IMG/VR virus record: IMGVR_UViG_3300049719_000183 | Location: 1-64,000 of that record | Reading direction: 5' to 3' (one strand) | Length of the DNA: 64,000 bases | Source of the DNA: a virus | Part shown: positions 1 through 17,481 of the stretch, piece by piece | Layout of the letters: the number at the start of each line of letters is the position of its first letter | Numbering within the stretch: the stretch's first letter is position 1 | The notes under the pieces: generated by a model | Seen by the model: the letters and a program-made list of their open reading frames with translations, nothing else | What the model was told of the DNA's origin: nothing | Databases searched by the model: none | Program-made: the position numbers and the translations under genes

Positions 1-497
1 GGGTTTCTGTTGCCGCTGAATTTCGTGGCAGTGCCCGTGTCACCGGCCCGCAGTGTATCGGGCGTCACCTTGCTGTCCCTCATAGCTGCGTAGGAGTCCC
101 CGAGATTGAGCCAGCAGGTGCCATCATCCCTGAGCACTCGCTTCACCTCGTGAAAGACATCTACGAGACGAGCAACATAGGCTTCTGGCGATGACTCCTG
201 TCCAAGTTGTTCATCGATGCGTCGAGCCCCGCACTTGGCACATGTCTGGCGGGTGAGTGCAGCAACCCCGTCACGGTTTCTTTGGCCCCGATCATCGACC
301 ACGCCATCAGCCCTGCCAGCTCCGTTGCGGCCTTGCTTGTGGTCGCAAGCAGGGTCACCACCTTCCCATTTGGCTGTGCCGTAGTCCCTCAGGCCCCAGT
401 AGGGAGGACTGGTGACTGCCATGTGCACACTGTTATCGGGCAGCGTGCGAAGCTTCGCCAACGCGTCACCCTGCAATATCTGCAGTGTCGGCGTCAT
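1..497 (-). CDS. DNA methyltransferase, N-terminal part (runs off left edge)
   Basis: Read leftwards from an ATG at 497; 165 residues are visible before the window ends. TSPPYW at residues 29-34 is the catalytic motif of beta-class amino (N4-cytosine type) methyltransferases. A CAKCG pair near residues 86-90 and the segment HEVKRVLRDDGTCWLNLGD (115-134) follow. It is a clear paralogue of the complete enzyme at 56636-57727, which has the same order of motifs. The SAM-binding FxGxG motif should lie beyond the left edge. It probably modifies phage DNA for protection against restriction; the target sequence cannot be read from the gene. It begins 17 bases after the stop of the gene at 515-1525. 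Confidence 0.9.
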   Translation of the reverse strand, partial: MTPTLQILQGDALAKLRTLPDNSVHMAVTSPPYWGLRDYGTAKWEGGDPACDHKQGRNGAGRADGVVDDRGQRNRDGVAALTRQTCAKCGARRIDEQLGQESSPEAYVARLVDVFHEVKRVLRDDGTCWLNLGDSYAAMRDSKVTPDTLRAGDTGTATKFSGNRN

Positions 498-514
498 GTG
501 GCTAGCCTGATCGG

Positions 515-1525
515 TTAGCGGGTCTTGTACGGAGCCAGAAGCTCGTCAGCCCGGTCAGGATAGGTCTTGAGCACGTACTTCTTCAGATTGTCAAATCGAG
601 TGTACGACTTGCCATCTGCCGCACAGACAAACTTCTTCTGCGCTTCTGGGAGTGCTGCGGGAGCGGGTGCATCCGGCACCGTAGGATCGGGAAGGTCGGC
701 CCCCTCGTATACGTCGCTTTCGGGGATCTTCACCGTGGCATCCGTGAGGACGACAGGGGCGGGCTCCTTTGGGGGCGCTCCAACGGGGGTGGTGATCGTG
801 ACCCTGGGACCTCCTGCAGGCGGCTTCGGCGCAGCTTCCTGCTGGCGGCGAAGGGCTCCCGGTGTGACGATCTCGTCAACATACGGGGCGTTCTTGGCGC
901 TCAGGCCATCCTCTGCATCGGGGCCTTCAATCGGAGGCCTTGCACGACGAATGACATTCCGGGCCTCAGCCTCAGCTACGCCTTCCCTCCCGGGGAACGC
1001 TCGCACAGCTGGATTGATGCCTGTGGGGGTGAACCCGGGCAGTTCGGGTTTCTTTGCCATCGGGCCGCCGGTGAATCCGGCGCTGCCCTTATCTGAGGGA
1101 GCATGGGGCTTCGGAGGCATTATGCCGCCTGGCTGCTTGCGGTCGGAAACCAGCACGTTTGTTGGAGCCCGTTGCACCTGTTGGACAGGATTGATGGCCC
1201 TCTGCTGTGGCATGGGCTGGGGCTTCCAGGGGGCCGCAGACACGCCGATGCCTTTGCCTCCCGTTGTGTTGAGTAACACCAGTGCTGTGGGGTCACCCAG
1301 CTGCTTGGTGAGGCCGCCGGGCTGAAGGAAGCCGTCGAGACGGGGGTCATTGATCCTTTGACCGTCCATCTTGCCATCCGGTCCCCGCTCACAGATGTAA
1401 CCACCCGGTTGCAGGGTGATGTTCAAGGCCAGAGCGTTCGAGTTGATCGTCAGCGGATACTTATTGCCGTTGAAGTAACCCGTTGTGGTGGTCAGCTCCG
1501 CAGGTGTTGGGGCTCTCTTTGACAT
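515..1525 (-). CDS. Unrecognised Pro/Ala-rich protein, possible virion protein
   Basis: 336 residues. The N-terminal ~90 residues look folded and contain the phrase LQPGG twice. The middle (about 95-300) is rich in Pro, Ala and Gly and probably disordered. The last ~40 residues, from FVCAADGKSYTRFDNL onwards, form a second compact segment that resembles a degenerate zinc finger, but only one Cys is present. I do not recognise a family. The start at 1525 is an ATG, with no strong Shine-Dalgarno sequence. Confidence 0.7.
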   Translation of the reverse strand: MSKRAPTPAELTTTTGYFNGNKYPLTINSNALALNITLQPGGYICERGPDGKMDGQRINDPRLDGFLQPGGLTKQLGDPTALVLLNTTGGKGIGVSAAPWKPQPMPQQRAINPVQQVQRAPTNVLVSDRKQPGGIMPPKPHAPSDKGSAGFTGGPMAKKPELPGFTPTGINPAVRAFPGREGVAEAEARNVIRRARPPIEGPDAEDGLSAKNAPYVDEIVTPGALRRQQEAAPKPPAGGPRVTITTPVGAPPKEPAPVVLTDATVKIPESDVYEGADLPDPTVPDAPAPAALPEAQKKFVCAADGKSYTRFDNLKKYVLKTYPDRADELLAPYKTR

Positions 1526-1539
1526 GGTGCTATAGAACG

Positions 1540-1737
1540 TTACAATGTTAGGTAGAAGTAGGTTTTCCCGTCGTTGGTTAGGGTGTAACGGGTTCCTGTA
1601 TCTGTAACCTCTGTTGATAGAACAGTTAACTCACTGGGCTGTGGGGCGCCCCTCAACTGCCGAAAAATCAACAGAAGCACCACGAAATTGGCAGCTCCTA
1701 CTAGGAGAACAGCCCCCGCTATGATTGCATCGCCCAT
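1540..1737 (-). CDS. Small single-span membrane protein
   Basis: 65 residues. Residues ~4-26 are hydrophobic (IIAGAVLLVGAANFVVLLLI) and followed by FRQLRG, which suggests an N-out/C-in single-span inner-membrane protein. The tail is a short polar beta-like segment. The gene overlaps the 3' end of its upstream neighbour by 19 bases. Function unknown; size and topology would also fit an accessory lysis or superinfection protein, but nothing specific shows that. Confidence 0.6.
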   Translation of the reverse strand: MGDAIIAGAVLLVGAANFVVLLLIFRQLRGAPQPSELTVLSTEVTDTGTRYTLTNDGKTYFYLTL

Positions 1738-2081
1738 CGGTTGATCAAATCCCTACAGCCATAGAGAGTATCGGCCACAGTTCGGGTTTTCGGAACAGCG
1801 TTTACAATCGCTACAGTCAACGGAGGCTTCCCCCCATCAGCTTGAAGTTCAGGACGAGAGGGATCGCGCCATATTCCCAGGTGTACCTCGTCGTTTACGC
1901 GCAGACGCAGATAACCAGCGAGAGATACCATCTGGAAGGGTTTGAATCGCTTGAAATCGGAACAGGTGAGCGCCTGAGCCTTGATTCGTCGCCCTGATGC
2001 CATGACGCTCTCACGGTTGTCCTCGTCGCGGATGACACAATAAGTGGCCGTGTCCACCAAGTGTTCGAGTTCGAGGATCAT
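1719..2081 (-). CDS. Unrecognised small protein (120 aa)
   Basis: I chose the ATG at 2081 because it overlaps the stop of the upstream gene (ATGA), the usual arrangement here; the frame stays open upstream to 2249 but that part is covered by the neighbour. The product starts MILELEHLVDTATYCVIRDE. The mixed alpha/beta look (two hydrophobic strands around VMASGRRIKA and LRLRVNDEVHLGIW) suggests an OB-like or SH3-like barrel. No family recognised. It sits in a leftward operon behind the helicase. Confidence 0.6.
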   Translation of the reverse strand: MILELEHLVDTATYCVIRDEDNRESVMASGRRIKAQALTCSDFKRFKPFQMVSLAGYLRLRVNDEVHLGIWRDPSRPELQADGGKPPLTVAIVNAVPKTRTVADTLYGCRDLINRWAMQS

Positions 2082-2284
2082 TTTTGACCGTATTCTCGAT
2101 TCAAGATGTGCAAGAAAACGCGGCCTTCCTCTCGCGTGCAACTGACCTCCAAATAATCCTGACCGCTCGCCGTTTGATAGCCCGGCTTGAAACTGAAGGG
2201 GGTTCCCGCCCGTATTAGGATGGAGCAGGCGTGGGTGGTTTTCTGCCAATTTTCACCACTGGAGAGGTTGAGTGATATTTTCAT
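2078..2284 (-). CDS. Unrecognised small protein (68 aa)
   Basis: Starts with an ATG that overlaps the helicase stop codon by four bases, so it is translationally coupled to the helicase. Contains ILIRAGTPFSFKPGYQT, a beta-rich stretch, and ends LHILNREYGQK. No family recognised. Confidence 0.6.
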   Translation of the reverse strand: MKISLNLSSGENWQKTTHACSILIRAGTPFSFKPGYQTASGQDYLEVSCTREEGRVFLHILNREYGQK

Positions 2285-4998
2285 CGGTCGTCTATGGCCT
2301 CTAAGAACCAGCTAGGAAGGTCTCTCTTCGTGCTGTGAATGAGGCGGCTGATGTCTGAATCGATGGCGTAGGTGACGCAGGTGTCGTCTTTGGCTCGCAT
2401 GCCCCTACCGCACGTCTGGACGAAGCACTTCACGGCCTCCATGTGATACCACTCAGGATCCCGAGCCATACGGGCCTTCACTACCTGATCGCCCAGGCTG
2501 GGATATTGGCACTTCAGAACGATTTGCCAACGGCACAGATCGTAGGCGAAATCAAAGCCCTCGAACAGGCTTGGGCTGATGAGGATGCTTCCAGGTGTCT
2601 CGGCGTGGCGCTTCATCGCTTCATCCCGAGCGTCTACATTTTCTGGGTAGGCGATTCGGCCTGCAAATCCAGCCTGAATGAGACCGTGCACAACCTCGTC
2701 GGCGAAGGCGTACGAGTGGGTGTGTATGACGCCTCGATCCGTGTGATTCTGGACAATCTTGGTGATGAGGCCCATCATGCGAGGTAGCATCACGTCCCTG
2801 CTCTGCTTGGCCAGGCTGCCAGCGTTGAGAAGGTGAATGGGGCGTCTTTCCTTGGCGAAATCGCTGGGAGCCTTGTAGTGCGCCACAGAGTCGGGATGCA
2901 GGCCCATCTCATGGCAAAACACTGACTTTCTCCCGATGAAGGCACTCATGTAGATGCGTCGGGGAAAGGCGTCGAAATAGTCGTGGAAAAAGGGGCCTAC
3001 ATCGATGGGTTTGCAGAGGATGGTGAGATTCTTCGTGCGCTCGTTCACGTCGTGCCAGTACACCCAGCCGCCAGGATCCGCTTGAAGCCGCTTGTAGGCG
3101 ATGGACACCCGCTCGTACTCCTGTTTGGCCTCGAATATCTCCCGGGCGTCAGCATCCGATGAGCCGACATCCTCGGCCATCTCGATCAGCACCTTTAGAC
3201 GTTCGTAGCTCTCAGGCAGGAACGTGGCCCCGAGCCAGAAGATGAAATCATGGATGCTCGTGTTGAGCGACATCATCTCATCTGCCAGCGAGCGGTCCCT
3301 CTTGTATAACTTCTCGTAGCTCAACTCGATGCCGACAAGGGAAGTCAGGGTTTTTTCCAAATTGTGACAATTGTGAACTAGGACGCCGTTGGCGAAGTAA
3401 TTGTGGTTTCCCTCAACTTCGATATTGTAGACAAAACCGTCTGGGCACAGTCCTCCAAATGTTCCGTCACCTGACTGTTCCAAAATCTCAACACGATCCA
3501 CCCTAATTCTTTCAAACGTCGAGTCTTCCAAGAGTCCCTCGTCTTCTGTTGAAGGGTTCTGTGGCTGTTCCCGTCCACCTCTATCGCTAACTTGTACTCC
3601 ACAAGTCCAATGTCCATACGATAGCATTTCACTCGGGGCATTATTTCGGAGGGAGGGGTTTGAGCGTTCATTGGCTGCTCTTCTGGCTGAAAACCTCCCA
3701 TGCCAACCGCGAGTTCCATCTTCGGATTCAGTCCAAGGGTCTTTAACTTCTCGTACAGTTCCGTTTGCCATTTCGTTGGACCCCACCCATTGCCCCGACG
3801 CAGGGCCAATTTCTTTCCTTTCATTGAAATTTTTATCTTCTCTATGACGCCGGGTCGATGTACCGGGTTGTTCTGCCGCATGCGTTTTGAGATTTTCTTG
3901 GAATCCCGTAACTGGGTGCGCGTCATGGTTTCCGACCACACTGAAAGCGACCTGGCTCGGCAGCATTTCTCTGAACAATAAGCGTAACCGTGAGACTTGA
4001 AGCGTCCGAGCGACGACCAGGGTGGATTTCCGTACTCGCAAATAACTGGCCTTGAACAGTGCTTGCAGTTTGTTAGTGCCTGCTCTCGGTTCAATCTCCT
4101 GTGAATTTTGTAGCATTCTTCCGAGCAGCAGAAATAACCCAACCTTATGGCGTGTCTGTTTTGATAGCCCGGCTTGTGAACCGCACGGTAAGCGTATCTC
4201 CGACAAACCACGCAGCGGTAAACGATGGGTTCTGCGGTGCACATACCTACCTTCTGTGTTTTTGGCTGGGATGTAAGTATCATCTGAGAAAAATGGGTGG
4301 TTGGGTGTGCAAATTATGCAGCTTTTGTCAGAAAACACCAACCTACACAGGGCCTTAGGCTGTGACCTAAATACCTTAGTAATAGTACTTAACTCAACAT
4401 TTTTAGTGATGTGATTGAAACTATGCAGGGCGTCTCCAACGTGTAATAGATTTATAGGGGTTGTGTCTATAACTACAGTGGATGGAAAACATTCATCCAG
4501 CACCAGCACAGCCCTTGGATACATGCTCTTCACGTACGCCGCATCGGTTAGGAAATAGGCGTAGTTGGTGACACCCAAAATGCTGTTCAGGAACAGGTCC
4601 TTCTGTATTTTGTAGGCGCACTCACCCGCTTTTTTCATCGGGCACGGTTTCACAGCGAGGCCACAGAATTTGAACCTTGGGCACGGGTATTCGATGGCGC
4701 TCTTGATGAGCTGAGCGCTGAAACCTCCCACCCCGAAGCGACCCAGGTCTGTGGCAATCTGATCCTGCAGGGCCTTCTGGACCACGAGCATGTAGCCCCC
4801 GGGTTGCAGTAGCGGATCGTTTGTGGGTCCACTCAGCCACCGGCACAGCGTGGCGCCCACTGCTGTTTTGCCGAATCCTGTAGGCGCTTCGATGATGATG
4901 TCCTGGTATCCCTTCGCAAGTGCATCCTCCGTGAAGGCCAGAGCCTCCACTTGTGGCTCCCGAGGGACAGGCAGTGGGAAATAATCGAGGGCAGGCAT
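2281..4998 (-). CDS. DinG/XPD-type SF2 DNA helicase interrupted by an intein
   Basis: The extein is an SF2 helicase of the DinG/XPD (Rad3) group. Walker A is APTGFGKT (residues 38-45). Four cysteines at about 106, 112, 119 and 127 are spaced like the iron-sulphur cluster of that group. The Walker B/DECH box ends the N-extein (LVLDE, 165-169) and resumes as CHN after the intein. Motif VI, QTCGRGMRAKDD, lies near the C-terminus. The intein covers residues 170-543, so the spliced product is about 531 aa. I prefer the ATG at 4998 over the in-frame GTG at 5040: it gives a natural N-terminus (MPALDYF) and TGTAAACA lies just upstream. Likely role: 5'-3' unwinding in replication or recombination. Without splicing the DECH box is broken and the enzyme should be inactive. 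Confidence 0.88.
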   Translation of the reverse strand: MPALDYFPLPVPREPQVEALAFTEDALAKGYQDIIIEAPTGFGKTAVGATLCRWLSGPTNDPLLQPGGYMLVVQKALQDQIATDLGRFGVGGFSAQLIKSAIEYPCPRFKFCGLAVKPCPMKKAGECAYKIQKDLFLNSILGVTNYAYFLTDAAYVKSMYPRAVLVLDECFPSTVVIDTTPINLLHVGDALHSFNHITKNVELSTITKVFRSQPKALCRLVFSDKSCIICTPNHPFFSDDTYIPAKNTEGRYVHRRTHRLPLRGLSEIRLPCGSQAGLSKQTRHKVGLFLLLGRMLQNSQEIEPRAGTNKLQALFKASYLRVRKSTLVVARTLQVSRLRLLFREMLPSQVAFSVVGNHDAHPVTGFQENLKTHAAEQPGTSTRRHREDKNFNERKEIGPASGQWVGSNEMANGTVREVKDPWTESEDGTRGWHGRFSARRAANERSNPSLRNNAPSEMLSYGHWTCGVQVSDRGGREQPQNPSTEDEGLLEDSTFERIRVDRVEILEQSGDGTFGGLCPDGFVYNIEVEGNHNYFANGVLVHNCHNLEKTLTSLVGIELSYEKLYKRDRSLADEMMSLNTSIHDFIFWLGATFLPESYERLKVLIEMAEDVGSSDADAREIFEAKQEYERVSIAYKRLQADPGGWVYWHDVNERTKNLTILCKPIDVGPFFHDYFDAFPRRIYMSAFIGRKSVFCHEMGLHPDSVAHYKAPSDFAKERRPIHLLNAGSLAKQSRDVMLPRMMGLITKIVQNHTDRGVIHTHSYAFADEVVHGLIQAGFAGRIAYPENVDARDEAMKRHAETPGSILISPSLFEGFDFAYDLCRWQIVLKCQYPSLGDQVVKARMARDPEWYHMEAVKCFVQTCGRGMRAKDDTCVTYAIDSDISRLIHSTKRDLPSWFLEAIDDR
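3374..3589 (-). repeat. 3' block shared with intein 2
   Basis: Two stretches are identical to the reverse complement of intein 2: 3468-3589 (122 bp) equals 13956-14077, and 3374-3444 (71 bp) equals 14101-14171. A divergent 23-bp patch separates them in both copies. The block carries the nuclease active site and the intein C-terminal splice motif. Confidence 0.92.
3378..4283 (-). CDS. EDxHD (Vsr-like) homing endonuclease nested in intein 1, +1 frame
   Basis: 301 residues in the +1 frame relative to the helicase. Paired cysteines (CVVC, CCSEEC, CKHC, CSEKC) suggest two zinc ribbons in the first ~110 residues. A NUMOD3-like segment (RMRQNNPVHRPGVIEKI) follows, then a Vsr/DUF559-like nuclease core with IEVDGNSHRTLQQKTRD, matching the E-D-x-H-D signature of phage homing endonucleases. 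The stop codon lies 8 bases before the intein end, so the nuclease C-terminus shares its bases with the intein C-terminal splicing block. An ATG at 4244 aligns better with the start of the copy at 13286 and may be the true start. Expression would need internal initiation or frameshifting. Confidence 0.75.
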   Translation of the reverse strand: MILTSQPKTQKVGMCTAEPIVYRCVVCRRYAYRAVHKPGYQNRHAIRLGYFCCSEECYKIHRRLNREQALTNCKHCSRPVICEYGNPPWSSLGRFKSHGYAYCSEKCCRARSLSVWSETMTRTQLRDSKKISKRMRQNNPVHRPGVIEKIKISMKGKKLALRRGNGWGPTKWQTELYEKLKTLGLNPKMELAVGMGGFQPEEQPMNAQTPPSEIMPRVKCYRMDIGLVEYKLAIEVDGNSHRTLQQKTRDSWKTRRLKELGWIVLRFWNSQVTEHLEDCAQTVLSTISKLRETTITSPTAS

Positions 4999-5055
4999 AA
5001 AGATGTTTACAGGCTGAGTTCTTTGAAGAACTGTGCGCACCTCGTAGTTAGAAAT
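4999..5055. promoter_or_regulatory. Divergent start region with TGTTTACA and TAGTTAG
   Basis: This 57-bp gap separates the leftward helicase from a rightward gene. TGTTTACA at 5004-5011 reads TGTAAACA towards the helicase ATG. TAGTTAG at 5045-5051 lies four bases before the rightward ATG at 5056. The two neighbours thus carry the two different start-proximal motifs seen throughout the window. Confidence 0.5.
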
Positions 5056-5565
5056 ATGAACGACCTGTTCAAGTTGCTGTTTGAAGACCTTCCAGAACCG
5101 GATGACGAGGTCATGCGGCTACTTGAGGCTGCCGAAAGGGTGGAAAAGTTGGAGGTGAAGAAGAAGCCCTTGGCAGACGCCCTGAAGGACCTCCACATCG
5201 AGGACGTGGAGCTTACAGCAACACCTGACGGTGTGCTAGCCACATGGAACAGTGATGTGAGCTTCCACACAGACACGGAAAGGCTCGGATTACCCGATGT
5301 TATCACTCAGCTAGCCGGTCACGGATGGGTTCCCGTGTGCGGTGGAGACACTCGCCCGGGCGATGAGTCGCCCAACTACACCTGGAAGTTTCTTGAGGTG
5401 GACGAGGTTCCCTATTCCAGCGATGATGAGGCCCCATCCTCGGAGGAACAGGCAGCCACGGCCATGAAGTTCAACGGTTTTGCCAAGCAGGACCAGACGA
5501 CTACTGAGCCCCCCATGCAGGGAGATGCCCGAGCCCTGAAGGCTCTCAAGAAGGGAAAGAAGTGA
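5056..5565 (+). CDS. Unrecognised acidic protein (169 aa)
   Basis: The ATG at 5056 was chosen because TAGTTAG lies directly before it and because the longer open frame would run into the opposite helicase. The N-terminal half (MNDLFKLLFEDLPEPDDEV) is highly charged and predicted helical. A more folded segment follows (ATPDGVLATWNSD, GWVPVCGGD), then an acidic linker and a Lys-rich C-terminus (LKALKKGKK). No family recognised. It overlaps the next gene (GTGA). Confidence 0.7.
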   Translation: MNDLFKLLFEDLPEPDDEVMRLLEAAERVEKLEVKKKPLADALKDLHIEDVELTATPDGVLATWNSDVSFHTDTERLGLPDVITQLAGHGWVPVCGGDTRPGDESPNYTWKFLEVDEVPYSSDDEAPSSEEQAATAMKFNGFAKQDQTTTEPPMQGDARALKALKKGKK

Positions 5566-5825
5566 GCCCTGCTCGTGAACGGATAGATGCCCTGTTCGAG
5601 CGTGCGCGGGGGCCGCACCAGGAGGAACCCTTTGACACGGTGGGATTCATCATGGCCTTCGAGAATGGTGAGTTGGACGAGCAAGAGGTCGCTGAAGGAT
5701 TTCAACATCTGATCGACAGTGGCGTGGTCTGGCAGCTTCAGGGAATGTACGGCAGGACCGCCGCTGACCTCATCAGGAACGGTCTGTGTCAAGACACGCA
5801 TGGCGTACTCGCCAAAAACCAATGA
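5562..5825 (+). CDS. Small conserved phage protein (FENGEL...YGRTA type)
   Basis: 87 residues, GTG start overlapping the previous stop. Residues ~28-75 (AFENGELDEQEV, LIDSGVVWQLQGMYGRTAA) match a small protein seen in many phages, of unknown function. The N-terminus is RERIDALFERARG, a form of the TRxxIDRLFE motif repeated in the right-end genes, which suggests this is a fusion of that leader-like motif to a common small domain. Confidence 0.72.
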   Translation: MSPARERIDALFERARGPHQEEPFDTVGFIMAFENGELDEQEVAEGFQHLIDSGVVWQLQGMYGRTAADLIRNGLCQDTHGVLAKNQ

Positions 5826-6481
5826 GTGACGCATTCTGGGAGACCATTGCATGGCACGAGGCCCACACGCCCCCTTTTCCGCCCATCCTGGAGGCCTATA
5901 GAGGCACCGAGGTGGTGGAGTGGTGGGGACGCATCGAGCGTCAGCTTGTGGACATGGTTAACCGCTTCGAGACCAGCCGGGACTTCGAGAGCAAATCCAA
6001 GGCTCAGGAAGCGCTCGACATCTGGAGGCAGAACCAGATCTCTGGCAGCATCAACATCGAGACAATCAAGGCGCTTGAGTCTGGAATGCGCATCCTGGCC
6101 GTCGATACGTGGAATCAGAGCAATTATTTTGCGGCTCTCCGTGACAGCCTGCGCAAGCTGGTGGCGGGCCAGGAGGAACTGCCCCCGATGCCTGATGAGA
6201 CAGGTGGCATGGGTGGAGGCGGCGGTGGCGGCGGTGGTGGTGGAGGCGGCGGTGGCCCCAATAAGCCCATTGTGGGTGGACCGGAGGAGAACCCTGAGGA
6301 GGGCGGCCCCGAGCCGAGCCAGGACTTTGGCCCCGAGAAGGAACCCGGAGAGACACCTGATCAAGAGGGCAAGGCCGTACCGCCCGAAGGGGAGGAACCA
6401 GCGGGTGCCCCAGGTGGTGGCGCAAGAAATCCGAGATCCAAGCCCAATCCCCTCGACAGACTTCTGAGAGGCAAACAGTAG
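5822..6481 (+). CDS. Unrecognised protein with poly-Gly tract
   Basis: The ATG at 5822 overlaps the previous stop. About 120 helical residues (MSDAFWETIAWHEA...) are followed by an uninterrupted run of about 15 glycines near residues 133-148 and a Pro/Glu/Gly-rich tail ending LDRLLRGKQ. A helical head with a flexible tail would fit a scaffold-like or decoration protein, but this is a guess. Confidence 0.7.
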   Translation: MSDAFWETIAWHEAHTPPFPPILEAYRGTEVVEWWGRIERQLVDMVNRFETSRDFESKSKAQEALDIWRQNQISGSINIETIKALESGMRILAVDTWNQSNYFAALRDSLRKLVAGQEELPPMPDETGGMGGGGGGGGGGGGGGGPNKPIVGGPEENPEEGGPEPSQDFGPEKEPGETPDQEGKAVPPEGEEPAGAPGGGARNPRSKPNPLDRLLRGKQ

Positions 6482-6488
6482 TTACACC

Positions 6489-6938
6489 ATGACCAAGATT
6501 TCCCCAAGCGTCGTTTCACTCATCGGTGAGTCCAATTTGTCTGAGGTGTCGCATGCCACCATCGAGCTGAAGGTGACGGGCACTTCGGCTGAGGTCCAGA
6601 GGGCCGTCAAGCACATCGCTGGCTCCAAGGGCAAGAAGACGCTAGCCAAGATGGCCAAGAAAGAGGTCAAGGACGAGCCGGAAGACGCCGGTGACGATCT
6701 TCCCGCTACCCATGCCGACCCAGGCCCTGACGGGCGTGGCGTGCTCGCTCGCGACGAGAGCATCTCGCCCGAGGACTTGGCCAACGCCCGCCTGATCGCA
6801 GCCGCGCCGGAGCTGCTGGACGCTCTTAGGCGCTTGATGGACTGCCCAGACCTATGCCTTGACACGCTGGAGCCTGAAAGCGATTCCGCAATCGAAGCGG
6901 CCCGCGCCGCAATCGCCAAGGCGGAGGGCCGCGCATGA
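6489..6938 (+). CDS. Small protein with common ANARLIAAAPELLDAL domain
   Basis: 149 residues. The C-terminal half (LANARLIAAAPELLDALR, AIEAARAAIAKAEG) is a short domain found in many phage and prophage proteins of unknown function. The N-terminal half has a strand-helix pattern (ATIELKVTGTSAEVQRAVKH) plus a Lys-rich linker. TAGTTAC lies three bases before the ATG. The 3' half is more GC-rich than its neighbours, which may indicate acquisition. Confidence 0.7.
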   Translation: MTKISPSVVSLIGESNLSEVSHATIELKVTGTSAEVQRAVKHIAGSKGKKTLAKMAKKEVKDEPEDAGDDLPATHADPGPDGRGVLARDESISPEDLANARLIAAAPELLDALRRLMDCPDLCLDTLEPESDSAIEAARAAIAKAEGRA

Positions 6939-7009
6939 CCGCCCAACTCGACATGTTCGCGGCTTCGACTTGCCACACGCCTTCTCGACGGGGCCTAGTT
7001 AGGGCATGA
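6935..7009 (+). CDS. Possible 24-aa peptide or gene remnant
   Basis: An ATG overlapping the previous stop opens a 24-codon frame starting MTAQLDMFAAS and ending on the TGA inside the next ATG. QLDMF resembles a sliding-clamp binding motif (QLxLF), and such N-termini occur on longer phage proteins, so this may be the stump of a truncated gene. Weak evidence. Confidence 0.3.
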   Translation: MTAQLDMFAASTCHTPSRRGLVRA

Positions 7010-7347
7010 TCACCCCGCGTCAGTTTGTTGCCGGTCTTCTCGAAGACTGGAACAACCCCAGTGCAGCTCCACGACCAGGTGAGCAGCAGGATGACCAGAT
7101 TGGGGACGATGTGACGGTAGTATCAGATGGTGAAGCTTTTCAGGGCAAGATTGCCAAGAAAGACCCGAGAGACTCCAAGGGGCGTGTCCAGGTGAGCTTC
7201 AAAGGTCCTCGCCCTCCCAAGGACGAGTTCGAGCCTGATCAGTTGAGGCACGATGATCCGAAGAACGGGCCGAAGCCCGCAACGTCACCCAGGCCCGTTC
7301 CCCCTGTTTCAAGCAGGGAGGGCAGAGGCCCTGGCAGCTTTCTTTAG
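7006..7347 (+). CDS. Unrecognised protein (113 aa), late-type start
   Basis: TAGTTAG three bases before the ATG groups it with the structural genes. The N-terminus, MITPRQFVAGLLEDW, loosely resembles the TRxxIDRLFE leader of the right-end genes. Residues ~30-70 (DVTVVSDGEAFQGKIAKK) look like a small SH3-like barrel. The C-terminus is Pro-rich. The stop overlaps the opposite gene by four bases. Confidence 0.65.
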   Translation: MITPRQFVAGLLEDWNNPSAAPRPGEQQDDQIGDDVTVVSDGEAFQGKIAKKDPRDSKGRVQVSFKGPRPPKDEFEPDQLRHDDPKNGPKPATSPRPVPPVSSREGRGPGSFL

Positions 7348-7763
7348 CCGACAATCTTGACGGTGTCGTGAGTCGTGTCACCCGTTCCGATAACGACGCA
7401 CTCACGGGGAGCGTCCTCAGGAGTCTCAGGCTGTGGTATTGCTGGCTGAGGTATAGGAACTGTGGGCTGGGGCGCAACCGACTTCACCGTAGGCATTACC
7501 GGCACTTTTTCCTCCCTGAAGTATCTCGCACGTATCAATGCCCGCTTGTGGTAGCTGAACAGCCACGGAATGGGTTGGCAGGTTTCCAGCTTGATCTGCA
7601 ACTCCTTGAGCAGAGCTGACCGTTCAATGGTTCCGTGTGCCCTGATGATGTCCACGATCATCCTCGGCTGTGGAGGAAGCGTTTCGGCCACATAGTAAGT
7701 CAACTTGCGGACGTACCGCCTCGGTTTCTTTCCTATGGTTTTTGTCTTGGTGGTTTTCTTCAT
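7344..7763 (-). CDS. Basic, possibly winged-helix protein
   Basis: 139 residues. A Lys/Arg-rich N-terminus (MKKTTKTKTIGKKPRR) is followed by a helix-turn-helix-like segment (MIVDIIRAHGTIERSALLKEL) and aromatic residues (YHKRALIRARYF), consistent with a DNA-binding winged helix. A Pro-rich linker leads to a short hydrophobic end. Convergent with its left neighbour. No family assigned. Confidence 0.6.
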   Translation of the reverse strand: MKKTTKTKTIGKKPRRYVRKLTYYVAETLPPQPRMIVDIIRAHGTIERSALLKELQIKLETCQPIPWLFSYHKRALIRARYFREEKVPVMPTVKSVAPQPTVPIPQPAIPQPETPEDAPRECVVIGTGDTTHDTVKIVG

Positions 7764-7878
7764 GTGTTAGGGCATGGGTTTCTTTCGTAGGCGGAGTAGT
7801 TACCACAATGATGCACGTTTGTAAACAGCATTCTAACTTTTGTGTTTACATCACTCCCTGTATGTATACGGTACGCCC
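7764..7878. promoter_or_regulatory. Divergent intergenic region with two TGTTTACA elements
   Basis: The 115-bp gap holds TGTAAACA at 7820-7827 and TGTTTACA at 7843-7850, an inverted pair, with TATAC-like sequence at 7864-7869 before the rightward ATG. Probable promoter/operator region for both flanking genes. Confidence 0.5.
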
Positions 7879-8136
7879 ATGAACTACAAGAACACCATCA
7901 TCGTAGTCTCCGGTCCCTCTGGTCGTGAGTATGTTGTGAAAATGGGCAGTACCACGATCATCAGCACGAGGCTGGATGACGCATCAACACTGTCCCCACA
8001 GGAAGCCGCCGATTTTATCAACAAAATGGACCGTCCTGCCGTTGCCAAGGATCTTGACTGGTATAGGGTTGAGGTAGGTCGCAGCCGTGAAATTGAGGTG
8101 CGATTGGAACGGGAACTTCAGGAGATCCTGGAGTAA
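7879..8136 (+). CDS. Unrecognised small protein (85 aa)
   Basis: The ATG at 7879 (MNYKNTIIVVSGPSGREY) lies about 29 bases after a TGTTTACA element; in-frame codons further upstream fall in that element. Two beta-like strands, then a helical, charged C-terminus (VRLERELQEILE). Isolated rightward gene between leftward ones, probably separately regulated. Confidence 0.65.
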   Translation: MNYKNTIIVVSGPSGREYVVKMGSTTIISTRLDDASTLSPQEAADFINKMDRPAVAKDLDWYRVEVGRSREIEVRLERELQEILE

Positions 8137-8138
8137 CG

Positions 8139-9722
8139 TCAGTTCGAGTCGAGTTCGAGGACTGCGTCTGCGCCTGTCGTCTGTGAGGCGGGCGCATAGC
8201 CATCGAGAGCCAAGCTGCTGCCAACCGAGATTCCGTTGGACGGGTTCGGAGCGCCTGCCGTGCTTGTAGCCCCGTTGAAGGACCAAGCATAGGGTCCCGA
8301 GTACGGAGAGTTCCTAGCGGAAGCGGGATAAAACACCATGTTCACCACAGGGTTTGCCTGCGTGAAGCTGGAGCAGAAGAGAGCCGAGGAGTACCCGGCC
8401 CCGAGGTTTTGCGAGTACTGCGTGCCGTAGATGAGCGCACGGATCGCACTGTTGACGAAGAAGGCCGGTGTGGGTGAGGAACCTCCACCAGATGCTGTGA
8501 TGGTTCCCGTGATGACTATGGCCGAGGTGGTCGTGCAGACAACGGTGTAGGAGGCGTTAGCGTTCGAGACCGGCACCGTCCATGAAATCGAGGGAGGATA
8601 CGCCGTGTTTGTGCCAGTAGTCAGACTGGCTACGGCTGCGCCAGTAGAGCTGAAAACAGTGAAAGTGGATCCAATCGGCATCGAGCCCGAGGAGCTGCTT
8701 GCGGAGAACGTAACTGAGGGTGCCACAGAGCAGGTGGCAGTGTTAATGTAGAAGCCGTAGATGACATCACCCTGCAGTGTCGTATTGCTGACTCCCGTGA
8801 GAGTGCTGGGCTGGAGCACCGCCACGCCCGTGAACGAGGTCCAAGTCGCCTTATAGGCGTAGGGTGTGACCGTCAATGTGGCTGAGGCTGAGTTGACGTT
8901 TCCAGAGCCATTGGACACGTTGCAGAAGTAGGATGAGCCGTTGAGGGAATACGGCACATTGGTCAATGTCAGTGAGGCTCCACCATTGCTTGTACCGCTG
9001 TTGATCGCGACGTTGTTTTGGTACCACTGGTAACTCAGGGGAGCTGTGCCGGAAGCCAACACGCTGAATGTGACCGAATTTCCAGTAGAGATAGTCTGGT
9101 TGGAGGGATTCGAGGTGACGACGGGAGTTCCCGTGACGACCAGTACAGCGGGCAGTGAGGCGGTTGACCCGCCGGATCCCGTCACAACCACGGTGTAGGT
9201 GCCCGCATTGGCCGATGCCGCGCTGGCAATGTTGTAGCTCGATGCGGTGGCACCTCCGATGTTCACACCATTCAAGAGCCACTGGTAGGTCAGCACTCCT
9301 GCGCCCGTGGCTGCCACCGTGAAGGTGTAGCTGTTGGTGGGATTGACGGTCGCTCCCACGGGCTGCGTTGTGATCTGAGGGGCTGCAACTGGCGTAGGCG
9401 TGTAGGCAACGGGGCCGATGATCACCCAGGTGCTGCCGTTCCAACAGCTCAACTGTTGCGTCGTGCTATTCCAGTACAGGTAGGGGTAGGATGGGCTGGT
9501 CGGGTAGCCCGTCGAAGTGCCTGCGGCGAAGGGGAAGACAACGCTTCCCACTGTCAACCAGGTGGAACTGTTCCAGACGACGACGATGTTGAGCGACGTG
9601 TCTGAGTAGACGAACCCATCAATGGGGTTCGAGGGTCGTTGCGCAGTCGGGCCTACACCGAACGCAATGTTGGTAGCGCCCGGACTCTGTGTCTGTAGGA
9701 ACGAACTCTGGGGGTTGGGCAT
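8139..9722 (-). CDS. Virion surface protein with two Ig-like domains
   Basis: 527 residues, Ser/Thr/Gly/Val-rich and almost free of Lys and Arg. Residues ~1-105 hold two tail-fibre-like modules (SDTSLNIVVVWNSSTWL, YWNSTTQQLSCWNGSTW). Two bacterial I-set-like Ig domains follow: ITTQPVGATVNPTNSYTF...YQWLLNG...GTYTVVVTGSGG, and NPSNQTISTGNSVTFSV...YQWYQNN. The C-terminal part may be a receptor- or carbohydrate-binding domain. Ig-like folds are common decorations on tailed-phage virions. The ATG overlaps the TAA of the gene before it. Confidence 0.85.
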   Translation of the reverse strand: MPNPQSSFLQTQSPGATNIAFGVGPTAQRPSNPIDGFVYSDTSLNIVVVWNSSTWLTVGSVVFPFAAGTSTGYPTSPSYPYLYWNSTTQQLSCWNGSTWVIIGPVAYTPTPVAAPQITTQPVGATVNPTNSYTFTVAATGAGVLTYQWLLNGVNIGGATASSYNIASAASANAGTYTVVVTGSGGSTASLPAVLVVTGTPVVTSNPSNQTISTGNSVTFSVLASGTAPLSYQWYQNNVAINSGTSNGGASLTLTNVPYSLNGSSYFCNVSNGSGNVNSASATLTVTPYAYKATWTSFTGVAVLQPSTLTGVSNTTLQGDVIYGFYINTATCSVAPSVTFSASSSSGSMPIGSTFTVFSSTGAAVASLTTGTNTAYPPSISWTVPVSNANASYTVVCTTTSAIVITGTITASGGGSSPTPAFFVNSAIRALIYGTQYSQNLGAGYSSALFCSSFTQANPVVNMVFYPASARNSPYSGPYAWSFNGATSTAGAPNPSNGISVGSSLALDGYAPASQTTGADAVLELDSN

Positions 9723-10177
9723 TAGGGTACCGGAAGCTCATCCTCGCGCTCTAGGGCGTCTTCCCCTTGATCCGCCGCTTCCTCGTTGCCCCCAAGGTCA
9801 TACCTCTGGTGGAGGTTCTCGCCATCGCCCCCGCGTGTTTCCGTGTCTGCAGAAGGTTCTGCAGGGGCCTCATCGGGGATCACTTCCTCTTCCTCGCCAG
9901 GTCCCGGCTGCTCACCCGGCCCCTCGCCATCGAGACCATCACCGCCCTGTTCCACGGAAGCAATCGTGGGGCCGCCCTCGCCGCCACCCTCTCCACCCTC
10001 AGGCTCATCGGCCCCTGGCGGTGGGATTCGCTTGAAATACCACTCCAAATTGGCGGCTATCTCGTCCACCATGGCTCCGCTGCCGCGGCATGCGAGGTCA
10101 TAGATGGCTTTCAGCTCTCCAAAGGACAGCTCGACGGTGTAGTTGTTGAACGTCTCTGACTTCTTTTTGACAATCAC
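9722..10177 (-). CDS. Unrecognised acidic Gly/Glu-rich protein
   Basis: 151 residues from a GTG at 10177. About 50 residues look folded (VELSFGELKAIYDLACRGSG, ANLEWYFKR). The rest is Gly/Glu/Pro-rich and likely disordered. TAGTTAG occurs 19 bases upstream, further than usual. Operon partner of the Ig-domain protein. Confidence 0.6.
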   Translation of the reverse strand: MIVKKKSETFNNYTVELSFGELKAIYDLACRGSGAMVDEIAANLEWYFKRIPPPGADEPEGGEGGGEGGPTIASVEQGGDGLDGEGPGEQPGPGEEEEVIPDEAPAEPSADTETRGGDGENLHQRYDLGGNEEAADQGEDALEREDELPVP

Positions 10178-10221
10178 GGTGGGGAAGTTGTTCTCCTAAC
10201 TACCCTAGGTTCTCAACATAG

Positions 10222-11355
10222 GTGCACCTCATCACATTCGCTCAATCGGTAAGTTTCCGCTACGTCAAATCAGCGGGCACTTACATGTTTACGGCCATGC
10301 CGAGGGTGCCCTACGTTTTCTCCTTCTCCCAGTTCGAGGCCATCAACAACACGGAGAAGATCAGGGACCTGCTGGTATCTGACAGCCTATTCTGGCCCCG
10401 TCTGCCCGCCTTCACGGTGCGCCCCACAGGTGGCCGGGGTGAGACAGTGCTGTTTTTCACGGGCGCAGGCGGGTATGGGGACCAGATCATGGCGTGGCCT
10501 GTGGCCAAGTTTCTGCATGACATGGGCTATCGTGTTCACGTCCTGTGTGACCCGGGCAATGACCACTTATGGGGATGGTTCCCCTGGGTGGCAGGTGTGA
10601 AAGTGATGCCCCTGTCACTTGCCGAAATGGAGGAGTTCGATCATCTGGCCCTCTATGCCTATGTCACAAATGTGGACGAACATGAGGGGCAGCCACACCC
10701 CACGGACCACCTGTTCCGAATGGTGGGCATTGATCCATCCACCATCCCACCAGAGAAAAAAAGGGTGCCTCCACCGTTGAGTTTTGGACAGCTGAGTGTG
10801 CGTGCCGGTGCACCCGAGAACCTGGGCCTCATCCAGCTGAGCGGCTCTAATTTTGTCCGCAGGCCCATGCCAGACAGATTGGCAAGGATGCTCACGAAAC
10901 TCATCACCGAGGTGCCGATGAACTGGCTGGGATTGCACGATGTGGACGATGAGCACATGGCTGCGGCGAGGAAAGTGGCCGAGGAACATCCCAAGCTATT
11001 GCAGGTACGGTTGAACGTTTCCTTTGATGAGTTCGTAGGCCTCACCGCTGCCGCCAAGATAACGGTAGGTCCTGACAGCTTCCTGACACACTTGCGGGGC
11101 TCCATGGGGCTGCCAGGTGTGAGCGTCTTTGGCACTCACCATCCAGGTATTCGCACCCGCTACTACCCCGAAATGGTGTCAGTGTGGGAGCGACAAGTGT
11201 GCCCAAGTTCTCCCTGTCTCGTTTTTCGCCGAGCTTTTCCAAGATACTTGTGCCCTCCCTCAGCTGGACCACGACAGGAGTGTGCCGTGGTGGCTGCTGG
11301 GTACGATGTTGTTACAGATACAGTTAAGAAGGTTCTTTCAGGGGTGAAAGGTTGA
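10222..11355 (+). CDS. GT9-like (heptosyltransferase-fold) glycosyltransferase
   Basis: 377 residues, GTG start; the N-terminus aligns with its paralogue at 36241-37560. TGAGGYGDQIMAWPVAKFL (~77-95) is the N-domain glycine loop of GT-B fold family 9 enzymes. The second half has the donor-site pattern of the family (TAAAKITVGPDSFLTHL, then LPGVSVFGTHHPG). A Cys-rich segment (CPSSPC, CPPS, QEC) near the C-terminus is shared with the paralogue. Likely transfers a sugar to DNA, to a virion protein or to host surface glycans; the acceptor cannot be inferred. Confidence 0.78.
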   Translation: MHLITFAQSVSFRYVKSAGTYMFTAMPRVPYVFSFSQFEAINNTEKIRDLLVSDSLFWPRLPAFTVRPTGGRGETVLFFTGAGGYGDQIMAWPVAKFLHDMGYRVHVLCDPGNDHLWGWFPWVAGVKVMPLSLAEMEEFDHLALYAYVTNVDEHEGQPHPTDHLFRMVGIDPSTIPPEKKRVPPPLSFGQLSVRAGAPENLGLIQLSGSNFVRRPMPDRLARMLTKLITEVPMNWLGLHDVDDEHMAAARKVAEEHPKLLQVRLNVSFDEFVGLTAAAKITVGPDSFLTHLRGSMGLPGVSVFGTHHPGIRTRYYPEMVSVWERQVCPSSPCLVFRRAFPRYLCPPSAGPRQECAVVAAGYDVVTDTVKKVLSGVKG

Positions 11356-11398
11356 TTGTTGTTTACAACATGTGTAAATCCTGTATTGTAGGTAAGGT
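11356..11398 (+). promoter_or_regulatory. TGTTTACA promoter-like element
   Basis: TGTTTACA at 11360-11367. A TATTGT hexamer at 11383-11388, 16 bases after TTTACA, could serve as a -10 box. AAATCCTGT, the reverse of the ACAGGATTT that follows this element elsewhere, lies between them. Confidence 0.5.
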
Positions 11399-12019: not shown

Positions 12020-12297
12020 GCAGAAAAGAAGCAGCCGCATTAGCCGCAATCAGGAGATCAGAGTTAAGGATCAAGTGGATAGAGATCATCAAGTCGGAGA
12101 TGGCCTCAGGTGAGTCCTCCAAAGATGCTCTTGTGGCAGCAGCCCGTGACATGCTCGATCTCCAGAAAAAGAACCCCTCAGGGGCATCCGAAGTTGGTCG
12201 TGCATGGACCGAATTTCGCATACAGATAAAGAGTTCCGTGGCACGAGGTCCTTCCGAGATGGGCACCAATTCTGACTTGGGGTCAGCGGTATCGTGA
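12016..12297 (+). CDS. Unrecognised small helical protein (93 aa)
   Basis: Start overlaps the preceding stop (ATGA). Mostly helical (MSRKEAAALAAIRRSEL, SSKDALVAAARDMLDLQ). Directly upstream of the UvsW-like helicase; possibly a cofactor, without direct evidence. Confidence 0.6.
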   Translation: MSRKEAAALAAIRRSELRIKWIEIIKSEMASGESSKDALVAAARDMLDLQKKNPSGASEVGRAWTEFRIQIKSSVARGPSEMGTNSDLGSAVS

Positions 12298-12309
12298 TTC
12301 TCAGGGGGT

Positions 12310-15162
12310 GTGATCACCCTCAAGGAGACTGCCACCCGTCTGATAGCTGCAGGACCGAAGGCCGAGACAAGCCTCATCATAGATCACTTTCGTTTTCAGC
12401 CTCCCGATTACTGGAGGAGCCCTCGTTATCAACTTTACAGGGAGACTGGCGGCGAACGGGGCTGGAACGGCTACGTCTACCCGGCGCAGCGCCAGAAGGA
12501 TGGTTCAGTGGTTCTCGGTCGCGGTCACAAGGACGAACTTCTGAGTTTGCTGGAGGTGGAGGGCGTTCAAGTTGATGGCGAGCGCCTCCTGGAGAGTCCA
12601 TTTCAGTCACTCACTCCAGATGACATTCCAGACGATCTCCTGCCCGGGTTCGAGCACGAGCTAACGCATGATCAGAGGGCCTGTGTCCTGACGTTGCTGA
12701 GGTACAGCTTCGGATGTGTGCGTGTGTCAGTGTCTGGAGGCAAGACGGCCATCTTTTTCGCACTGGCAGCCATGATCAAGAGCCGACACCCGAAGGCCCG
12801 TTGCCTGTATCTGGTGCCCACGGAGCGCCTGGTGAAGCAGGTGACCAAGGAGGGCCGGAAGTTTCTCCCCGACTGGCACATCACCCAATTCGGTGGTGAT
12901 GAGAAGGACAGCACGGGTGCCGATGTGGTGGTTGCCACGGTGGCGACACTCAACAAGCGCTACAAGTACCTGCTCCTCGACAACTGGTTCAAGACGTTCA
13001 TGGTGCTGCTGGTGGATGAATGTTTTCCCTGCAACACTCAGGTAAATGGACGGTGCATTTCTGACATTTTACCCGGCGATAGGGTTCCCTCCTGCAACCA
13101 CCAGACAGGTTGCATTGAATTACGCAAAGTAACGCGCATTTTTAGGTCAAAACCCTCTGCAATGTGTCGTCTTACACTATCAAATGGTAAAACCCTACTC
13201 TGCACCCCGGGACATCCCCTGTGGACGGGAACCAGGTACACACCAGCTATACTATGTTTAGGAGAGAAGATGGTGTACTTAATAAATGATAAAGAAGATA
13301 ATAGAGGGTCACTCGGAGTGTGTAGTTTGCCACGCTATGGCAGAGGTGAGATACGACAAGAAACCCTATTATCGGAGCCCCCAAGCAGTGTACGGGGGTC
13401 AGTTTGTGTGCTCCGGCGCCTGCAAACAGAAACGACGCAGAAATCTTGTGCGGAAGGCCCGGAACACATCCAGCTATGTGATAAAAAAATTGGTTGTTAT
13501 CTGCAACAACTGTGGGAAGCCTGTAAATTGTCGTGGAGGACGGTCAAAACTTCCCTACTATCAACGGTTGGGGGCTGCTCGGAAGGGGCGTGCCTATTGT
13601 TCAGAAGAATGCAAGAAAGCTTGGTCCACCTCCCGTTGGTCTTCTACTATGAGACGAACAAATATACGGGATCGTGCCATTATTTCGGCTCGAATGAAGA
13701 CAAACAACCCCTCCTCAGACCCAGAAATCTCAGCCAGAATAGGGCAAAAATTGAAGGGGCGTGCAATGGCTCTTCGTGCTGGAAATGGCTGGGGGTTCAC
13801 AAAGTGGCAACTTATTTTGAACGAAGCTCTAAAGTTGGAGAACTTATCCACAGAATTGGAGTTTCCGGTCCCATTCCATCACCACATACCTGCGGAGGGC
13901 GAGCCTCCTCCCCCAAAATGCCACATGATAGACATTGCGCTACCTCTGTTAAAGATAGCGATAGAGGTGGACGGGAACAGCCACAGAACCCTTCAACAGA
14001 AGACGAGGGACTCTTGGAAGACTCGACGTTTGAAAGAATTAGGGTGGATCGTGTTGAGATTTTGGAACAGTCAGGTGGAGCGACACACATCGCTGTGTGT
14101 CCAGACGGTTTTGTCTACAATATCGAAGTTGAGGGAAACCACAATTACTTCGCCAACGGCGTCCTAGTTCATAATTGCCACCACCTGTCATCGGGCAAGA
14201 CGTGGCAGACCATCGTTACCAGCGTACCTGCCTTTTATAGATTTGGGGCCAGTGACGGGTTGAAGAACGAGCGCAAGGACGATCTTCAATTGGGCATCAC
14301 CCTGCGTGGCTTCCTGGGTCCTGAGCGACATGAAGTGAGTCTGCTGCCACTCATCAACAACTCGCTTGTGGCGAAGCCCTACATCTATCTCGTGGATGTG
14401 CCCGAATGGAACAAGCGATTTGACGACTTACCTCACACAGCCGAGGCAGGATCCATCGCCTGGGCTGTCATCGACGGAGATTGGAAGCAGGGAACGTACA
14501 TTTGCCCTGCCTCTGACGAGGATGAGGATGGTGATGACATCCGTCGTCTAGGCTGGCAGCGTGTCATGATCGATGGCGAGGAGGTGGAGGTGGAGAGTCG
14601 TTGGTGCCTCCTCAGAAGGGCCTATGATGAAGGCATAGTTCGCTTCAAGGAGCGCAACACTTTCGTCGTGAATTGGGCGAAACACTTCTCGGACCAGGGC
14701 AAGCCCACGCTCGTGGTGGCTACCAGGACGGCTCACGTCTACATCCTGCAGACGATGATGGAGGCGGCAGGGCTGCAGCCGAAAGTGCTGACAGGCATGT
14801 CCACCTCGAAGGAGCGGGATGAGACGTTCGAGTGGCTGGTCAACACAACCGGCTCCATACTCATCAGTCCCATCGTGAAAGAAGGCGTGTCACTGCCCGA
14901 GCTGCGGGCGGGCATTGTGGCTGATCCTGTGGCCTCACCAGATCTGGCCCGTCAGATCATAGGCCGCTTCATCCGCACGAAGAAGACAGGATCCAACGAG
15001 GCCGAAGTGGTGATGTTCATCGACCGCCAGTACAAGTCGGCCAGGTATAACAGCATGGCCCTGATCAAGCAGTTGGAGAAAATACGGGGCTATAGCTTCT
15101 ACTACCCCTGCCAGGGTCCTGACAAAATCGGCCCACTTTTCGAGGCCGTGTCGATGTTCTAG
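12310..15162 (+). CDS. UvsW-like SF2 DNA helicase interrupted by an intein
   Basis: 950 codons from a GTG at 12310. N-extein: an unrecognised ~115-residue N-terminal domain, Walker A in RVSVSGGKTA (~138-147), motif Ia-like YLVPTERLVKQV, ADVVVATVATL, and Walker B VLLVDE (232-237), where the intein begins. C-extein: resumes CHHLSSGKTW, then TLVVATRTAHV, LTGMSTSKERDE, ISPIVKEGVSLPE and motif VI RQIIGRFIRTKK. Spliced length is about 565 aa, similar to T4 UvsW-type helicases, which act in recombination and replication fork remodelling. TAGTTAG overlaps the stop codon. Splicing is needed to rebuild the DECH box. Confidence 0.88.
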   Translation: MITLKETATRLIAAGPKAETSLIIDHFRFQPPDYWRSPRYQLYRETGGERGWNGYVYPAQRQKDGSVVLGRGHKDELLSLLEVEGVQVDGERLLESPFQSLTPDDIPDDLLPGFEHELTHDQRACVLTLLRYSFGCVRVSVSGGKTAIFFALAAMIKSRHPKARCLYLVPTERLVKQVTKEGRKFLPDWHITQFGGDEKDSTGADVVVATVATLNKRYKYLLLDNWFKTFMVLLVDECFPCNTQVNGRCISDILPGDRVPSCNHQTGCIELRKVTRIFRSKPSAMCRLTLSNGKTLLCTPGHPLWTGTRYTPAILCLGEKMVYLINDKEDNRGSLGVCSLPRYGRGEIRQETLLSEPPSSVRGSVCVLRRLQTETTQKSCAEGPEHIQLCDKKIGCYLQQLWEACKLSWRTVKTSLLSTVGGCSEGACLLFRRMQESLVHLPLVFYYETNKYTGSCHYFGSNEDKQPLLRPRNLSQNRAKIEGACNGSSCWKWLGVHKVATYFERSSKVGELIHRIGVSGPIPSPHTCGGRASSPKMPHDRHCATSVKDSDRGGREQPQNPSTEDEGLLEDSTFERIRVDRVEILEQSGGATHIAVCPDGFVYNIEVEGNHNYFANGVLVHNCHHLSSGKTWQTIVTSVPAFYRFGASDGLKNERKDDLQLGITLRGFLGPERHEVSLLPLINNSLVAKPYIYLVDVPEWNKRFDDLPHTAEAGSIAWAVIDGDWKQGTYICPASDEDEDGDDIRRLGWQRVMIDGEEVEVESRWCLLRRAYDEGIVRFKERNTFVVNWAKHFSDQGKPTLVVATRTAHVYILQTMMEAAGLQPKVLTGMSTSKERDETFEWLVNTTGSILISPIVKEGVSLPELRAGIVADPVASPDLARQIIGRFIRTKKTGSNEAEVVMFIDRQYKSARYNSMALIKQLEKIRGYSFYYPCQGPDKIGPLFEAVSMF
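13286..14167 (+). CDS. EDxHD (Vsr-like) homing endonuclease nested in intein 2, +1 frame
   Basis: 293 residues starting MIKKIIEGHSECVVC. Cysteine pairs at about 12/15, 42/46, 73/76 and 105/109 suggest two zinc ribbons. A NUMOD3-like repeat (RMKTNNPSSDPEISARI) covers ~137-152. The nuclease core has FPVPF, HMIDIALPLLKIAIEVDGNSH and RDSWKTRRLKELGW, with candidate catalytic residues E227, D229, H233 and D242. Last codon and stop (TAG at 14165-14167) lie inside the intein C-terminal splice block. No strong ribosome binding site is adjacent to the ATG; AGGAGAG lies about 20 bases upstream. Likely promotes intein homing by cutting intein-free helicase alleles. Confidence 0.78.
   Translation: MIKKIIEGHSECVVCHAMAEVRYDKKPYYRSPQAVYGGQFVCSGACKQKRRRNLVRKARNTSSYVIKKLVVICNNCGKPVNCRGGRSKLPYYQRLGAARKGRAYCSEECKKAWSTSRWSSTMRRTNIRDRAIISARMKTNNPSSDPEISARIGQKLKGRAMALRAGNGWGFTKWQLILNEALKLENLSTELEFPVPFHHHIPAEGEPPPPKCHMIDIALPLLKIAIEVDGNSHRTLQQKTRDSWKTRRLKELGWIVLRFWNSQVERHTSLCVQTVLSTISKLRETTITSPTAS
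13956..14171 (+). repeat. 3' block shared with intein 1
   Basis: Identical to the reverse complement of 3468-3589 over 122 bp and of 3374-3444 over 71 bp, with a 23-bp divergent patch at 14078-14100. The 5' two thirds of the two inteins are not alike at DNA level. Confidence 0.92.
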
Positions 15163-15359: not shown

Positions 15360-16184
<825 letters not shown>

Positions 16185-17259: not shown

Positions 17260-17261
17260 GT

Positions 17262-17480: not shown

Positions 17481-17481
17481 C

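Follow-up and report, generated by a model that had tools for sequence, protein, structure and literature searches.

Phage inteins in the DExx box of helicases with a predicted homing endonuclease in an overlapping +1 frame

The window analyzed here, a stretch of 64,000 nucleotides from the virus record IMGVR_UViG_3300049719_000183 (72,485 bases), encodes two SF2 helicases, each with an intein. Searches with Pfam, NCBIfam and PHROGs profiles assign helicase gene A (2281..5040, minus strand) to the XPD/DinG-like type (Helicase_C_2, 3.6e-17; phrog_2488, 1e-82) and helicase gene B (12310..15162, plus strand) to the UvsW/ResIII-like type (ResIII, 1.5e-13; phrog_16, 3e-38), in agreement with the hosts proposed in an earlier note on this DNA. 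Both genes are uninterrupted open reading frames (ORFs) with the intein included, and an Intein_splicing or intein_Cterm profile matches each. Intein A (374 aa; 3370..4491, minus strand) has the junctions LVLDE|C and VHN|CHN, and intein B (385 aa; 13021..14175, plus strand) the junctions LLVDE|C and VHN|CHH. Translation of the two ORFs gives PRAVLVLDE|CFPSTVV...NYFANGVLVHN|CHNLEK and FMVLLVDE|CFPCNTQ...NYFANGVLVHN|CHHLSS, respectively, as expected from the note's claim that the inteins split LVLDE|CHN and LLVDE|CHH; the junction of intein A falls between bases 4492 and 4491, inside the interval 4487-4497 that the note had singled out. Splicing would be needed for catalysis by either helicase. 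Elsewhere in the window, the ORFs at 10222-11355 and 36241-37560 have similar C-terminal motifs (CPSSPCLVFRRAFPRYLCPP and CPCSPCWAYAGFPESKCPQ) and look like paralogous glycosyltransferase-like proteins, and the ORF at 33803-36223, which is long and has degenerate short repeats (GSINGGVIQAGTI type), probably encodes a tail or fibre protein.

The splicing domain is recognizable at both ends of each insert. C1, H65 and the terminal HN are invariant in a 55-member alignment, the block B TxxH is present, and the +1 residue is Cys or Ser in the unique inteins counted. Intein B scores above the cut-off of the Intein_splicing profile and intein A just below it; both exceed the cut-off of TIGR01443, and the profile match to Hint structures in the PDB reaches 5e-20. 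In the structure model, confidence is high over the first 90 residues and most of the final 50, with pLDDT >90 at the Hint ends, and the middle is mostly disordered (pLDDT mostly <60). In both inteins, about 300 codons of the +1 frame are free of stops, and the helicase/intein frame is open throughout as well. This overlapping frame contains nuclease ORF A (301 aa; 3378..4283, minus strand) and nuclease ORF B (293 aa; 13286..14167, plus strand), each with zinc fingers and a DUF559 domain (E = 1.6e-11 and 5e-10, respectively). Eight nuclease residues are invariant in 74 sequences (D216, E227, D229, H233, D242, W254, R258 and N261), and they supply the D, ExD, H, D and WxxxRxxN of a PD-(D/E)XK core. 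The nuclease model has a mean pLDDT of 88, and its best PDB matches are 3hrl and I-Bth0305I (3r3p), with target-normalized TM scores of 0.68-0.72; the Foldseek E-values are modest (at least 2e-3), and by sequence profile 3hrl is matched at 2.6e-13. The protein is predicted to be a Vsr-like PD-(D/E)XK homing endonuclease with zinc fingers.

Matches to the nuclease were found in 40 phage records, including Vibrio phages, Corynebacterium phi673 and Pseudomonas MR14, in which the genes are annotated as encoding helicases, P-loop or coil-containing proteins, or hypothetical proteins. A first survey yielded 97 unique inteins, 85 of them directly after DE and 12 located 2-4 residues later (best 80 loci per scan). 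An extended survey, also seeded with divergent nucleases, gave at least 159 full-length nucleases: 146 in complete cis-inteins, 8 in split or partial inteins and 5 without a recognized intein. Each scan retained its best 80 loci, and the family is at least this large. Our site counts exclude relatives retrieved only via the catalytic core, which are generic DUF559 genes mostly from bacterial chromosomes (in L118-L175).

The earlier note had regarded the nuclease as belonging to the intein. It instead occupies its own frame over the intein, +1 relative to the helicase, in all 146 cis-inteins (best 80 loci per scan). In the 14 members examined first, the nuclease was always in this frame and ended near or just inside the intein end, with one overrunning it. 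In this arrangement, intein codon position 1 is nuclease codon position 3, and close relatives reveal which frame is constrained. Between the Vibrio phages 1.194.O and 1.088.O, the middle zone has 30, 2 and 0 changes at intein positions 1, 2 and 3, so that 30 of 32 substitutions hit the third position of nuclease codons; comparison of 1.194.O with K391 in the N-terminal zone of the intein gives 1, 1 and 14 changes (14 of 16 at intein position 3). The periodicity of substitution changes frame within the element.

Stop codons tell the same story. None occurs in the intein frame of any of the 14 members, against 4.8-14.9 expected from synonymous permutation of the nuclease codons, and the same permutation puts the stop count of the third frame near expectation. 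Seven split relatives, in which helicase and intein are carried as two ORFs, have 15-35 frame-0 stops across the same stretch; freed from cis-splicing, they provide a natural control for the open intein frame. The double constraint is visible in one 27-base block near the 3' end (AGGGTGGATCGTGTTGAGATTTTGGAACAG), which encodes a strand of the intein, RVDRVEILE(Q), and a strand of the nuclease, GWIVLRFWN: WxxxRxxN is present in the nuclease frame of 96 of the 97 unique inteins, and V..V.I is encoded by the same bases in the intein frame of 91 (best 80 loci per scan). A chance open frame is rejected on the permutation, the periodicity and the split relatives; the dual coding is real, with selection on both frames.

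To relate the two window elements, we used a nuclease tree of about 100 sampled relatives, in which many inner branches and the deep branches are weak. A and B are sisters (SH-aLRT 92), joined by L001 (96). Their 3' ends share a tract of about 230 bp (blastn 217/232; 94% identical), with approximate bounds of 3364..3593 on the minus strand for intein A and 13953..14181 on the plus strand for intein B. In A, one frame of the tract encodes the catalytic core of the nuclease and another the C-terminal splicing domain of the intein, and the bounds of the tract extend slightly beyond the intein end into the DECH codons. Identity at third positions is mostly 100% in the tract and about 0.5 elsewhere. 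Constraint alone is insufficient to explain this identity because, in the first part of the tract, A matches L001 at 0.55 where it matches B at 1.00; the tract looks recently gene-converted. A patch of about 30 bases inside the tract is diverged, and there A is more like L001 than B is. That the converted tract created the sisterhood as an artefact is rejected, as A and B are sisters without it as well (SH-aLRT 98).

Outside the tract the two nucleases are 39% identical. L001 and L017 have a UvsW-type host, like B, and L027, with an XPD host, lies far from A, indicating that XPD hosts were invaded more than once. Across the tree there are 10 host-family changes, compared with 31 when hosts are shuffled. 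These data are most simply read as an ancient transfer, whose direction and place we infer, from a UvsW-type to an XPD-type helicase, and then recent gene conversion. The low identity outside the tract and the repeated invasion of XPD hosts would also suit a history without in-genome transfer, in which A and B were acquired independently from other phages and landed at the same hot spot. We consider that possible but rather unlikely, as A and B are mutually nearest among the sampled relatives even with the tract removed and are nearly identical over the tract, third positions included. Returning to transfer between the two genes, given the age of the A/B split a direct jump within the window genome is likely but not proven. 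The earlier note's proposal of movement between motifs in one genome stands as movement between proteins, given the host changes and the sisterhood of A and B, with a probable in-genome step.

The shared position of A and B recurs throughout the family. The extended survey places 145 of 146 nuclease-bearing cis-inteins at the DExx box, at offset 0 in 130, 2 in eight, 3 in five and 4 in two (best 80 loci per scan). Their hosts comprise UvsW/ResIII, XPD, SNF2 and SNF2-methylase helicases as well as AAA+ DnaX clamp loaders. The shared position of A and B is therefore not chance, and, with sites spread across SF2 families and DnaX, what the hosts have in common is the codon block rather than the gene family. 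The only non-DExx host (best 80 loci per scan) is a D12 (Dam-type) adenine methylase that carries the same element at NE|CELH (L326, 2412-4514); its junction DNA, AATGAG|TGC, hints at recognition of DNA rather than of a protein family.

Inteins generally concentrate in active sites, including the Walker B motif of mycobacteriophage TerL (PMC5050341), and a mini-intein without a nuclease also lies at DE|CH (L015). Unrelated inteins might thus have survived convergently at DExx, where they are hard to lose, with no targeting by a nuclease. This explanation is improbable. A single nuclease lineage is behind all 145 DExx insertions, and the ATPases that it occupies are not orthologous (best 80 loci per scan); the lone outlier sits at a DNA-similar site, and retention alone would permit other catalytic sites. 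Targeting of a conserved catalytic codon block, as the earlier note envisaged, is supported at the family level, as is movement between motifs; related inteins were not found scattered over other helicase sites, nor did A and B prove phylogenetically unrelated. Two details hold for A and B but not for the whole family: insertion between E and C (15 of the 145 lie 2-4 residues 3' of DE) and an extein Cys as the +1 nucleophile (some hosts have Ser).

We sought a close intein-less allele of window helicases A and B and found none, so comparison with empty sites relies on Vibrio phages. The helicases of vB_VchM-138 and CP-T1 are 96% identical, and the 1059-nt intein, no more and no less, is absent from vB_VchM-138, as would fit homing into intein-less alleles. 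Its empty site reads GATGAA|GCTCATCAT (DEAH) where CP-T1 reads GATGAG|intein|TGCCATCAT (DE|intein|CH); in this pair, either gain of the intein brought the Cys or its loss removed it, and the DEAH of the empty allele means that the +1 Cys may not be ancestral. Empty relatives of 1.194.O have DECH (1.024.O and 234P10) or DEAH (1.285.O), and two further relatives, K389 and K459, carry a nuclease-less mini-intein at the same residue.

Other arrangements of the same parts were also recovered. Free-standing nucleases lie directly 5' of intact intein-less helicases with DEAH or DESH, not DECH (L056, L097), as if beside a resistant site. Seven loci have split DExx inteins with a nuclease ORF overlapping both halves (L088, L108, L216, L219, L222, L241 and L263); their C-half exteins are alike (NC[GS]AFPKP...), so they may represent one split-helicase lineage. 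In Vibrio phage PS65A.1 (L177) and in 13VV501A (L182), the helicase gene (from 301) carries another intein, which interrupts its Walker A motif (GGGK|C...HN|T in L177, GAGK|C...HN|T in L182), and both ATPase motifs of one gene are thereby occupied. One helicase (L041, 2638-6530) combines a Walker A-type mini-intein with a dual-coded DExx intein, and the next gene, DnaB-like in appearance, begins another intein.

How the nuclease would be expressed can be judged from its start region. Nuclease ORF A more likely starts with the ATG at position 4244, which has GAAGGTAGGT before it; the nuclease frame of ORF B opens stop-stop-ATG. In 96 of the 97 unique inteins, an ATG lies no more than 180 nt from the start of the nuclease open frame, and an ATG with an SD match of at least 5 nt is found in 43 of the 97 nuclease frames, compared with 11 intein frames and 7 third frames (best 80 loci per scan for both). 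About half of the members, ORF B among them, have a weak SD-like site or none. The proximity of an ATG and the SD enrichment lead us to prefer internal initiation, and the nuclease is most likely translated from an internal ATG within the intein. Programmed +1 frameshifting from the helicase/intein frame would leave the anatomy unchanged; the +1 relation, which all 146 cis-inteins share (best 80 loci per scan), and the members without a clear SD are compatible with it. It is nevertheless quite improbable, considering the near-universal ATG, the enrichment of SD-like sites in the nuclease frame only, the stop-stop-ATG of ORF B and the split relatives, where the nuclease has a gene-like arrangement of its own.

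Inteins A and B are each one open frame, not the separate N-half and C-half ORFs of a split intein. The endonuclease is not in-frame between the splicing halves, as in inteins with a homing endonuclease (HEN inteins), since it is +1 in 146 of 146 (best 80 loci per scan), and an in-frame LAGLIDADG or HNH nuclease was rejected after the helicase frame gave no such match in Pfam or NCBIfam. Nor are they of the ShiLan type, as a splicing domain is present and the nuclease is DUF559/Vsr-like, not HNH. By the sequence features tested, the element is an intein minus the in-frame endonuclease of HEN inteins. That the inserts are RNA introns is hardly credible: a hidden ORF does recall intron-encoded endonucleases, but the conserved intein motifs at both ends (C1, TxxH, terminal HN, Cys/Ser +1), the predicted Hint fold and the intein frame kept open argue against it, and a search for ribozyme introns with Rfam over window positions 1-20000 brought no family to its gathering score.

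With its anatomy, frame relation, two-frame selection, site specificity and precise empty sites in view, the element is very probably a mobile intein that encodes two proteins on the same DNA, a frame-0 splicing domain and a +1-frame homing endonuclease aimed at DExx codons. Protein splicing, internal initiation, DNA cleavage and homing are steps that we infer from the sequences. In frame 0, continuous with the helicase, the first ~90 and last ~50 residues would form the Hint splicing domain, its two parts joined by a disordered linker of ~230 residues; after translation, the intein would be excised and DE|CH rejoined, restoring Walker B. The +1 frame would yield, from an internal ATG, a separate nuclease composed of zinc fingers and a Vsr-like PD-(D/E)XK domain. 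This nuclease would cut intein-less alleles at the DExx codons, which SF2 helicases and certain other P-loop ATPases cannot afford to lose; repair of the break from an occupied allele would then copy the intein in, sometimes with the +1 Cys codon. With a catalytic codon block as its target, the element could jump between unrelated ATPases. In the window genome, it occupies both an XPD-like and a UvsW-like helicase, and the two copies appear to have exchanged 3' ends recently. More broadly, we think it likely that there is a widespread family of such overprinted inteins, each pairing a splicing domain with an independent DExx-aimed homing endonuclease in two frames, and that it is a possible source of split inteins. 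Its linked forms would be the free-standing nuclease beside an empty helicase, the dual-coded intein, the nuclease-less mini-intein and the split intein with a nuclease between its halves.

Several known systems share individual properties with A and B. Fractured genes, in which a free-standing endonuclease lies between the two parts of a split intein, were reportedly described by Dassa et al. in 2009. They have the same kind of nuclease, and the fractured layout occurs at DExx in the seven split loci listed above and in phage S16 (gp114/114.1/115); A and B, in contrast, are continuous (cis) inteins with complete nuclease overlap. Canonical HEN inteins likewise have a Hint domain with C1, the block B His, the terminal HN and a Cys/Ser +1, carry a homing endonuclease inside and occupy a conserved active site. 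The nuclease of A and B differs in lying in the +1 frame over the linker and C-terminal splicing domain, not fused in frame, and in being Vsr-like, not LAGLIDADG or HNH. I-Bth0305I has the Vsr-like catalytic fold predicted for A and B, but its PDB entry is a mobile intron protein, whereas the window nuclease lies in an intein and has N-terminal zinc fingers. Closest in layout is the ShiLan domain of actinobacteriophage methylases, a host-frame insertion that hides an out-of-frame HNH endonuclease, has no splicing domain and was concluded by its authors not to be an intein (PMC11855218). There, as in A and B, the insertion is read through in the host frame and the endonuclease is in another; unlike ShiLan, the host frame of A and B is a recognizable intein. 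The mycobacteriophage TerL inteins, inserted in a Walker B motif, have another host and another position, and the part of that report available describes no hidden +1-frame nuclease (PMC5050341). Apart from the non-intein ShiLan domain, we found no prior report of an intein with an overlapping-frame endonuclease in the open-licence literature searched, an absence that is not proof; this large family of selfish elements has apparently not been described previously.

Inteins are classified by the presence of an in-frame endonuclease, and overprinted ones would score as large inteins with an unrecognizable middle. Such scoring, together with annotation as 'helicase' or 'hypothetical protein', would keep well over a hundred related mobile elements out of sight. 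As a natural example of overlapping genes the family is also clean, with both frames under strong selection and split relatives as a control, and it suggests a testable route to split inteins. Finally, one selfish lineage crosses between non-orthologous ATPases via a catalytic codon block, which bears on the concentration of inteins in active sites.
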